From Porticoccaceae bacterium (GTDB taxonomy: Bacteria; Pseudomonadota; Gammaproteobacteria; Pseudomonadales; Porticoccaceae), in contig JABJEX010000014.1 of assembly GCA_018663035.1 (NCBI GenBank), positions 122,099 to 186,098 of the forward strand: a DNA stretch of 64,000 nucleotides. Reading direction: 5' to 3'. The notes below the pieces were generated by a model. That model ran no database searches and was not told the DNA's origin. It saw only the letters and a program-made list of their open reading frames with translations. The translations under genes were made by a program, and so were the position numbers. The stretch's first letter is position 1. Every line of letters starts with the position of its first letter. Positions 38,822-43,249 of this stretch are shown here, piece by piece.

Positions 38822-40195
38822 TCACTGAGTTAGAGCATCCAATGCTTCGGTCACTCGACGAACTGGTATCACAGTCATACCTTTGATCGCCTGCTTAGGT
38901 GCGTTACCAGCCGGCACAATGGCTCGGGTAAAACCATGTTTTGCTGCTTCTCTAAGGCGCTCCTGTCCATTGGCGACTGGACGAATTTCACCGGCCAAAC
39001 CAACCTCTCCGAAAACCACTAGATCCTGAGGTAATGTCCTGTCTCTAAAACTTGAGACCACCGACAAAATAAGCGCCAAGTCGGCACTTGTTTCCATTAC
39101 CTTGACCCCGCCCACTACATTGACGAACACATCCTGATCACCTACGGAAATTCCACCGTGACGGTGCAACACCGCCAGCAGCATAGAGAGACGGTTATGG
39201 TCCAGACCCAAAGTAACTCGACGCGGATTGCCCAGATGGCTGTCATCAACCAGGGCCTGCAACTCAACGAGCAGAGGGCGTGTACCCTCCCAAACCACCA
39301 TTACGACGCTACCTGAGGAGACCTCTTCACCACGCTGCAAAAAAATTGCTGAGGGATTAGCTACTTCTTTTAGACCCTTATCAGTCATAGCAAAGACACC
39401 CAACTCATTAACCGCCCCGAAGCGATTTTTATGGCTGCGCAGGGTGCGGAAGTGACTGTCGCTGGAACCCTCCAACATCAATGAACAGTCAATCATATGT
39501 TCCAATACCTTGGGGCCAGCCAGTGAGCCATCTTTGGTAACATGACCAACCAAAATCAGCACTGTGCCAGTCTGCTTAGCGAAACGCACCAGCATTGAGG
39601 CGCTCTCACGCACCTGAGAGACACTGCCAGGAGCCGAGGCAATCTCCTCCATGTGCATTACCTGAATTGAGTCGACTACCAGTATCTTAGGCCGCTTCTG
39701 CTCTGCGATGGCACAGACTGTCTCGACCGATGTCTCTGCCATAATTTCGAGCTTTTCAGTGGGCAGATCGAGACGGCGAGCGCGCATGGCTACCTGCTGA
39801 GGGGATTCCTCGCCCGTCACGTAAAGTGCTGACTGGGTCCCTGCTAATTTACAAAGCGTCTGCAATAACAGGGTACTCTTTCCTGCACCTGGCTCACCGC
39901 CTACCAAAATTGCAGAGCCTGGCACCAGACCGCCACCAAGCACCAGATCCAGCTCACCAGTACCTGTATTAATTCTGGGAATTTCATCCAGCGCAATTTC
40001 CGCCAGCGTTTTGACCGCCCCGTCCACTGCACCTGCAAACCCCGAGCGCAACACTTTGCCTGTACCTGAGGTTGGCCCTAAACGTACCTCCGATAGAGTA
40101 TTCCACGCTTGACACTCACCGCACTGGCCCTGCCATTTGCGATAGTCGGCGCCGCAGTCGTTGCATACATAGGCTGATTTTGATTTGGTGGCCAA
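38822..40195 (-). CDS. radA: DNA repair protein RadA
   Basis: CNDCGADYRKWQGQCGECQAWNT zinc finger; GGEPGAGKSTLLLQ; KNRFGAVNELGVFAM. Confidence 0.97.
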   Translation of the reverse strand: MATKSKSAYVCNDCGADYRKWQGQCGECQAWNTLSEVRLGPTSGTGKVLRSGFAGAVDGAVKTLAEIALDEIPRINTGTGELDLVLGGGLVPGSAILVGGEPGAGKSTLLLQTLCKLAGTQSALYVTGEESPQQVAMRARRLDLPTEKLEIMAETSVETVCAIAEQKRPKILVVDSIQVMHMEEIASAPGSVSQVRESASMLVRFAKQTGTVLILVGHVTKDGSLAGPKVLEHMIDCSLMLEGSSDSHFRTLRSHKNRFGAVNELGVFAMTDKGLKEVANPSAIFLQRGEEVSSGSVVMVVWEGTRPLLVELQALVDDSHLGNPRRVTLGLDHNRLSMLLAVLHRHGGISVGDQDVFVNVVGGVKVMETSADLALILSVVSSFRDRTLPQDLVVFGEVGLAGEIRPVANGQERLREAAKHGFTRAIVPAGNAPKQAIKGMTVIPVRRVTEALDALTQ

Positions 40196-40318
40196 ACAGT
40201 CTCTCCTAAATCTATGAACTTATTTAAGCTTATTACTGGTATTATGTACAGTAATAAAAAGAAGCCCGTGCCGCTAAGATAGAAGCCGGTTCAATCATCA
40301 ATAATAGTGTACTCAGCT

Positions 40319-40807
40319 ATGCAACTATCTATCCGCAAAGCCAGCGTCAATGATTGCCCGCTGATTCTGTCATTTATAAGAGAGTTAGCAGACTACGAAA
40401 AACTGCTCCATGAAGTGATTGCCGATGTCGCAGGCTTGGAGGAGTCCCTTTTTGGTGATCGCCCATACGCTGAGGTGGTTATAGCAGAGCATGAAACTCA
40501 AGCGGTTGGCTTTGCTCTGTTTTTTCATAATTATTCGACATTTTTGGCGCGGCCCGGCCTCTACCTAGAAGACCTTTATATACAGCCAGCAATGCGTGGC
40601 AAAGGGTTTGGCAAACAACTGCTAGCCTATCTGGCTAAGCTGGCAATAGAGCGAGACTGTGGCAGACTGGAATGGTGGGTACTAGACTGGAACGAACCAG
40701 CCAAAAACTTCTATCAGTCATTGGGTGCCGAGCCCATGGAGGACTGGACTGTCAACCGGATCACTGGCGATGCATTGACTGACCTAGCCAAACAGAGTGT
40801 GATTTAA
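40319..40807 (+). CDS. GNAT family N-acetyltransferase
   Basis: LYLEDLYIQPAMRGKGFGKQLLAYLAKLA. Confidence 0.92.
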   Translation: MQLSIRKASVNDCPLILSFIRELADYEKLLHEVIADVAGLEESLFGDRPYAEVVIAEHETQAVGFALFFHNYSTFLARPGLYLEDLYIQPAMRGKGFGKQLLAYLAKLAIERDCGRLEWWVLDWNEPAKNFYQSLGAEPMEDWTVNRITGDALTDLAKQSVI

Positions 40808-40838: not shown

Positions 40839-41519
40839 ATGAATAGCAGTGACCTCACCGGAAAGCGTATCTTTATTACCCAAGCAGACAGTTTTATGGG
40901 TCCCGAGCTATCTAAAGTCTTGGCCGAAAATGGTGCAACAGTCATTAGCGATACTCAGCCGCTAGTTGATCCCAGCCTACCCTCCAAAATCATCGCGGCT
41001 GCGGGGCATATTGATGTGCTGGTAATTAATCTGGCCATACCTGCTCCATTTACCAAGGTTGAATTGGTTGGTGTAGACGAGTGGCGTTCAACCTTCGCCG
41101 CAATTGTCGATCCTATGCCGCAATTAGTGGCCGCAGTGCTGCCACAGATGATTGAGCGCGGCTCAGGCAAAATTCTAGTGATGGGTAGTGCCTCGGCACT
41201 GCGAGGCATGAAGAGAGCCTCTACCTACAGTGCAGCACGGGGCGCGCAATTGGCCTATGTAAAGGCTGCAGGTGTTGAATTAGCACCCCAGGGCATTCAA
41301 ATAAACGCCATAGCGCAGAACTTTGTTGATAACCCTACATACTTCCCCGAGCAAACCAAGGCGAACCCAGCCTTTCAGGAGCGCCTAAGACGCGAGGTAC
41401 CTCTTGGGCGCCTAGTGTCTATGCAAGAAGATGCGCAGTTTGCAGCCTATCTCTGCTCCGATGCAGCGGATTGTTTTGTGGGTCAGGTCTTTCCAGTGAG
41501 TGGAGGCTGGGCAACCTAA
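40839..41519 (+). CDS. SDR-superfamily protein, candidate halohydrin dehalogenase
   Basis: T-QADS-F-M-G (T-X4-F/Y-X-G) at N-terminus instead of GxxxGxG; S-X12-Y-X3-R (SASALRGMKRASTYSAAR). Confidence 0.7.
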   Translation: MNSSDLTGKRIFITQADSFMGPELSKVLAENGATVISDTQPLVDPSLPSKIIAAAGHIDVLVINLAIPAPFTKVELVGVDEWRSTFAAIVDPMPQLVAAVLPQMIERGSGKILVMGSASALRGMKRASTYSAARGAQLAYVKAAGVELAPQGIQINAIAQNFVDNPTYFPEQTKANPAFQERLRREVPLGRLVSMQEDAQFAAYLCSDAADCFVGQVFPVSGGWAT

Positions 41520-41562: not shown

Positions 41563-42672
41563 ATGTCTCTAATACCAGAAAAACCAATCGTTATATCACC
41601 CACGCTAGCCGCCACCCTGGGGCTGGAGGAGACCGTTTTGCTGCAGCTATTGCAAGAGTGCCAGGCCCATGGCAACGCGGTGGAGAGCAGCGGTTTTAAT
41701 TGGGTAACTGTCTCTGGGCAAAGGATCCTCAGTTTGGCGCCGTTTTGGCGCGAAGAGGATATTCGCCGCCTGTCAGCAAGTCTGCATGAAAAAGGCCTGT
41801 TGCTGATTGGGGGCGGTGGCTTTTCTGCGCAACAGGATTTCCGCTTCGCCTTTAATGAGAGCTCTGGCAGTTCGCAGGTGACTCAAAAACCAGCCTATCA
41901 GACAGCGGTTAATCCCACCTCAGCAAAAACCATTGGCGGCAGTTGGCAACCCAGCGATGATGCACTGCGGCAACTAGCCCAACTTGGAGTCACTAGACAA
42001 TTTGCCCAGCAGCAGATACCACAGTTTGTAGCCTATTGGCGTGAGCGCAATGTGCCCCGCCACAGCTGGGAATCAAAATATATTAAAGAGGTCTGGCGGC
42101 AGTGGCAGCAGGCAGAAAGTACTAATCACCGCCGACGCCTCGAGGTCTCTGTTACCGATGAGTGGCGGCCTTCTGTAGATGCCATGGACATTCTGGTAAA
42201 ACAGGGTGGCATCAACAGCAACTTTATCGAAGACGCGATTCCTGAGTTTATTCTCTACTGGCGGGATCGCGGTGATGTCTCTAGTACCTGGGACTCAAAA
42301 TTTATTCAGCATGTGCGCCGTCAATGGCAGTTCTATACTGGCATGATGGATCAAGACACCATGCCGCGCACCATACCTGCGCAGTGGCAACCCAGAGAGA
42401 CTGTCTATGATGTGCTGCAGATGGCGAATATTGACCGCCAGTTTGCTCAACAGATCATTCCTGAGTTCGTTCTTTACTGGCAGGAGAATGGCACCCCCCA
42501 TGCCTCCTGGAGTACCAAGTTTTTGCAGTTCGTAAAGCGCCAGTGGGCGCGACATAATCAACCTCAGTCAACGAGTGGAACCCATGGCAAACAGCACGGA
42601 TCTTATTCAGAAGGTCGCATCAGAGATCGCAGCTTCGTCGAAGACCTCACCGACCGCAGCTGGGCAAGCTAA
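41563..42672 (+). CDS. DnaT-like domain protein with three tandem DnaT-type repeats
   Basis: Three units: WQPSDDALRQLAQLGVTRQFAQQQIPQFVAYWRERN..SWESKYIKEVWRQWQ; WRPSVDAMDILVKQGGINSNFIEDAIPEFILYWRDRG..TWDSKFIQHVRRQWQ; WQPRETVYDVLQMANIDRQFAQQIIPEFVLYWQENG..SWSTKFLQFVKRQWAR. Confidence 0.85.
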   Translation: MSLIPEKPIVISPTLAATLGLEETVLLQLLQECQAHGNAVESSGFNWVTVSGQRILSLAPFWREEDIRRLSASLHEKGLLLIGGGGFSAQQDFRFAFNESSGSSQVTQKPAYQTAVNPTSAKTIGGSWQPSDDALRQLAQLGVTRQFAQQQIPQFVAYWRERNVPRHSWESKYIKEVWRQWQQAESTNHRRRLEVSVTDEWRPSVDAMDILVKQGGINSNFIEDAIPEFILYWRDRGDVSSTWDSKFIQHVRRQWQFYTGMMDQDTMPRTIPAQWQPRETVYDVLQMANIDRQFAQQIIPEFVLYWQENGTPHASWSTKFLQFVKRQWARHNQPQSTSGTHGKQHGSYSEGRIRDRSFVEDLTDRSWAS

Positions 42673-43249
42673 GCCCGAGCCGCCTAACCCAGAACTGATT
42701 GATGCTATCAATCAGATTTTTGGGCTGTTTCGCGCCAACTACCACAATCAATACTACAGCGCCTTTGGCGATAAAAATGAATCCGTTGGCCTAGCGAAAA
42801 AACTATGGCTTGCCAAGCTCAGTGACTTCGCTCCACAGACTATTTTGTCGGCGGCAGAAAAGATAATCGGCGATAGTGAGTACTTGCCGACACTGCACAA
42901 AATGCTTGGCGCCTGCCGCTCTGTCAGCATGCCCGCCGGACTTCCCAATGCCCGCAAAGCCTATCAGGAGGCCTGCAATAAACGCAGCCCCAAAGCTGAG
43001 CAGCAATGGTCTCATGCAGTGGTCTATTTAGCAGGTCGCGACTGTGGCTGGCACCTGCTAGCTAATGAGGTCGAATCCAAAGCTCTGCCAGCATTTACAG
43101 AAATCTACCAACAGTACTGTGATCAGGTGATTAGAGGCGAAGAATTCTCCATAGAGCCTCCCCAGGCACTGCCAGAAACATCTCAGACACTGGCCAGTAA
43201 AACGCATAATCGCGAACAGTTAGATCAGCTTAAGCAGCTTTTAAGCTAG
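42584..43249 (+). CDS. Phage-lambda-P-like replication protein
   Basis: NPELIDAINQIFGLFRANYHNQYYSAFGDKNESVGLAKKLWLAKLSDFAPQTILSAAEKIIGDSEYLPTLHKMLGACRS; ATG at 42584 inside the upstream gene. Confidence 0.75.
   Translation: MANSTDLIQKVASEIAASSKTSPTAAGQAKPEPPNPELIDAINQIFGLFRANYHNQYYSAFGDKNESVGLAKKLWLAKLSDFAPQTILSAAEKIIGDSEYLPTLHKMLGACRSVSMPAGLPNARKAYQEACNKRSPKAEQQWSHAVVYLAGRDCGWHLLANEVESKALPAFTEIYQQYCDQVIRGEEFSIEPPQALPETSQTLASKTHNREQLDQLKQLLS

Follow-up and report, generated by a model that had tools for sequence, protein, structure and literature searches.

The question raised by the reading frame at positions 40839..41519 (+ strand) of the window, the whole stretch of 64,000 nucleotides that was analysed, is whether a protein that looks like an SDR oxidoreductase is instead a halohydrin dehalogenase (HHDH), and what such an enzyme would do in a SAR92-clade (Porticoccaceae) marine bacterium. 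A sequence-only reading had proposed a candidate HHDH on the basis of two motifs, the length of the protein and its C-terminus.

Motifs and family assignment

The reading frame was confirmed at exactly these positions, with an ATG start and 226 amino acids, and the features singled out by the sequence-only reading are all present. HHDH motif 1, T-X4-F-X-G, is TQADSFMG at residues 14-21 (T14-QADS-F19-M-G21; 40878..40901, +). It stands in place of the classical SDR cofactor motif T-G/A-X3-G/A-X-G, and the GxxxGxG pattern is absent. Motif 2, S-X12-Y-X3-R, is matched by residues 117-134, SASALRGMKRASTYSAAR (41187..41240, +), with Ser117, Tyr130 and Arg134 as the putative catalytic triad; the classical Y-X3-K is absent, since Y130-SAA-R134 has Arg replacing the SDR Lys. 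The C-terminus carries GQVFPVSGG. In HHDHs, motif 1 forms the nucleophile pocket and replaces the glycine-rich nucleotide-binding motif of SDRs (PMC11976700), and the residues of motif 2 form the catalytic triad (PMC4989007).

Both motifs together arose in just 15 of 200,000 shuffles of the window protein. A chance match to both in one protein is unlikely, though at the scale of a proteome finding the two motifs would not by itself prove an HHDH. Both are kept in all 38 fully readable relatives from the genus and the order (38/38). Their fixed positions are invariant in alignment A2, as are those of motif 2 in alignment A1. SDRs encoded elsewhere in this genome mostly have GxxxGxG and Y-x3-K.

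In a phmmer search of the PDB, the best matches were 7b73 (394 bits), 8xxb (294 bits) and HheB, 4zd6 (176 bits); the remaining HHDH subtypes scored about 68-107 bits and the best ordinary SDRs 70 bits and below, so these ranges overlap. Entry 7b73 is labelled only 'SDR' in the sequence search, and the structure library titles identify it as HheD2 and 8xxb as HheD8. The 7b73 sequence is that of the gene product of marine gammaproteobacterium HTCC2207, a close relative (locus L067; 225/225 residues identical). The literature describes Hhed2 as a gammaproteobacterial halohydrin dehalogenase (PMC5892878) and names HheD through HheD6 as experimentally verified (PMC4989007).

The window protein is identical to 7b73 at 181 of 225 residues (about 80%) and agrees with it in length, motifs, clade and genomic slot (radA / GNAT / hheD / dnaT-like). 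None of its 44 substitutions relative to HheD2 falls at a fixed position of either motif; residue 18, an X position of motif 1, is S in the window protein and T in HheD2. HheD8 (8xxb is a triple mutant with chloride) is a D-type HHDH with both motifs, 61% identical to the window protein, and in our tree it branches outside the SAR92 sequences and the other D-type ones. HheB of Corynebacterium sp. N-1074 (227 aa) reaches 42% identity in a structural alignment but belongs to another subtype, has Tyr in motif 1 and lies on a separate branch. The identities to HheD2 and HheD8, together with the tree grouping, place the window protein in subtype D. Identity between HHDH subtypes is given as below 30% (PMC4989007), a line that is not strict, as HheB shows.

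The sequence-only reading had proposed a phylogeny with HHDHs and SDR outgroups as a check. Our maximum-likelihood tree covered 52 proteins, including nine SDRs encoded by the same genome, with HheC and 6a41 entered as fragments and HheA, HheE, HheF and HheG not included. The window protein falls inside the same-genus clade, within a 12-member set that also holds HheD2 (99/94; the smallest starred set holding both) and outside the SDRs. All HHDHs in the tree are split from the nine own-genome SDRs (99/99). The deep branching order is unsure, and the position of the long-branched HheC less sure, given the length of several SDR and HheC branches and the fragmentary HheC and 6a41 entries; this leaves the placement beside HheD2 unaffected.

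An AlphaFold model (mean pLDDT 83, pTM 0.84) drops below pLDDT 50 at residues 118-123 and 161-166, parts of the active-site loops. Foldseek placed HheD2 (7b73) and HheD8 (8xxb) entries at ranks 1-5, followed by HheB. The full-length rmsd of the superposition is large (6.5 Å), probably owing to the weakly modelled loops, so it is the ranking and the identity that carry weight and not the superposition. As for a cofactor site, the glycine motif is absent from the sequence and HheD2 is the best fold match, the model loops being of low confidence.

An ordinary NAD(P)-dependent SDR oxidoreductase that resembles an HHDH in its motifs by chance is an extremely unlikely reading of the gene, and we rejected it on the family-model scores and the tree position: FabG-type SDR reductases do share the overall fold and the Pfam family adh_short_C2, to which the window protein is assigned, and generic SDR models match it weakly, but none of its 25 best NCBIfam SDR matches reaches the cut-off, it has neither the glycine-rich cofactor motif nor the Lys of Y-x3-K found in the FabG-type enzymes (about 24-26% identity), and the tree groups it with HheD2, away from the SDRs.

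Since sequence, phylogeny and predicted structure agree, the candidate HHDH can be upgraded to a D-type HHDH, ortholog of HheD2, an assignment that we hold to be very probably correct, with the activity predicted by orthology. Judged by its sequence, the window gene is not a new subtype but a fresh member of the family of an already crystallised enzyme.

Distribution, constraint and genomic slot

The genome has one such gene, its remaining SDR matches being 21-28% identical. The gene was found in 13 of 35 genomes of the genus, its own included, and the same search gave no relative in a sample of 21 genomes representing the order's other families. Drawn more widely, the order yielded a relative in 36 of 392 genomes, and a named collection held at least 496 confirmed relatives, the best 80 of which come mostly from beta- and gammaproteobacteria. 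The sequence-only reading called these enzymes rare; such counts qualify that for the D type, which is uncommon, yet far from rare.

The window gene is under purifying selection. Its dN/dS relative to same-genus genes is about 0.04-0.07, a rough figure because synonymous sites are near saturation, and its only departures at highly conserved columns are L12F, R95Q and E172Q, none of them in the motifs. Patchy presence within the genus and an end branch of 0.19, the longest of the SAR92 group in the tree, might suggest that an HHDH gene is decaying here, but with an intact reading frame, such a dN/dS, retained catalytic residues and just those three departures, we rejected a pseudogene as very unlikely.

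The gene order at SAR92 loci is radA / GNAT / hheD / dnaT-like / P-like / aceK. In the window, the upstream edge of this slot is a radA-like gene (38822..40195, - strand; named from sequence reading, and found in this position in every genus member checked), and the downstream edge is a DnaT-like gene with three DnaT domains (41563..42672, +; three stretches matching Pfam PF17948). Between the radA-like gene and hheD lies a gene for a GNAT-family acetyltransferase (40307..40807, +; Pfam PF00583), 31 bp upstream of hheD; in several relatives the two genes overlap by 4 bp. Such spacings suggest co-transcription, and GNAT and hheD probably form one transcription unit. The GNAT gene accompanies hheD in 7/7 hheD-bearing genus members checked. 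Where hheD is lacking (12 members read), the order is radA-GNAT-dnaT in four genomes, and radA lies directly beside dnaT in the other eight. The slot is thus constant, its content varying by loss or gain. When loci L172, L174, L177 and L178 are set against L171, L173, L175, L176 and L179-L182, slot content is seen to depend on the species, being GNAT with hheD, GNAT alone or neither.

Beyond the SAR92 clade we found no operon shared between genera: any one neighbour family turned up in at most five of 58 loci, and hheD is without a close same-strand neighbour in 35 of 58 (gene calling for this comparison lost hheD in seven loci). None of the neighbours within the window has a link to halogen metabolism.

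The three-DnaT-domain protein (41563-42672) adjoins a lambda-P-like replication protein (42575-43249) in a chromosomal setting, and a DnaT-like protein was found in 45 of 50 genus genomes searched. The two are possibly a domesticated phage-like helicase-loading pair.

Predicted chemistry and natural role

In the HHDH mechanism, an Arg-activated Tyr abstracts a proton and a Ser positions the substrate, while the halide departs into a pocket that motif 1 lines, and with other anions the reaction can run in reverse (PMC4989007, PMC11976700). The window protein would accordingly combine an SDR (Rossmann-like) fold with a pocket for halide or small anions where the nucleotide-binding glycine motif would be, and because the pocket replaces that motif, no use of NAD(P)H is expected. 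Tyr130, aided by Arg134, would deprotonate a vicinal haloalcohol whose oxygen is held by Ser117. The alkoxide would then attack the adjacent carbon and the halide would leave into the motif-1 pocket, giving an epoxide. In the reverse direction, an epoxide would be opened by halide, azide, cyanide or similar anions. This chemistry is well predicted; like the tetramer and the cofactor independence, it is one that we infer from the family.

Literature searches found nothing on the native role of hheD in SAR92. A plausible guess is that the enzyme removes naturally formed marine halohydrins, that is, detoxification. In its own genome we found no epoxide hydrolase above cut-off among the EHN-type (PF06441) and limonene-type (PF07858) families searched, alpha/beta-family enzymes that lack an EHN domain lying outside this search, and no L-2-haloacid dehalogenase above cut-off, so no degradation pathway backs a dehalogenase role.

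In some beta-proteobacterial genomes hheD lies between methylcrotonyl-CoA carboxylase alpha-like and HMG-CoA lyase-like genes (L102, L122 and L134; names from sequence reading) or has the same two gene families near the match position (L097 and L114), an arrangement that is a possible clue to a native role. At L122:5958-8684, from a Dechloromonas MAG, the carboxylase-like frame continues into hheD to give one 908-aa open reading frame, which could reflect a genuine fusion or an assembly indel.

The natural reaction of this HHDH-type active site could also be something other than dehalogenation, such as the opening, closing or isomerisation of an epoxide or hydroxylated intermediate of metabolism, and halohydrins would then be converted in a side reaction. 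This alternative concerns the natural role and is compatible with a D-type HHDH; we consider it possible, though on the unlikely side. It draws on the lack of an epoxide hydrolase of the two families, of a halogen-related neighbour and of an operon conserved across genera, on the leucine-degradation-like surroundings of hheD in a few beta-proteobacterial loci, and on the published statement that other physiological functions of HHDHs cannot be excluded (PMC4989007). A standalone dehalogenase, however, requires no linked epoxide hydrolase, and an anion-dependent reaction is suggested by motif 1, whose residues line the anion pocket and which every fully readable relative retains. A broader proposal, that D-type HHDHs act chiefly not in pollutant or halide detoxification but in a so far unrecognised metabolic step, central or secondary, and that this step is gained or lost among SAR92 species along with an acetyltransferase gene, strikes us as rather improbable; one lead towards it is the position of hheD amid leucine-degradation-like genes in a few beta-proteobacteria.

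Taken as a D-type HHDH, the window gene appears to be a solid but ordinary addition to the known family. It adds a D-type enzyme that is probably usable and, differing naturally from HheD2 by 44 substitutions, may be of help in protein engineering. With hheD present in some close relatives and absent from others at a conserved slot, the marine role of these enzymes would be open to testing.
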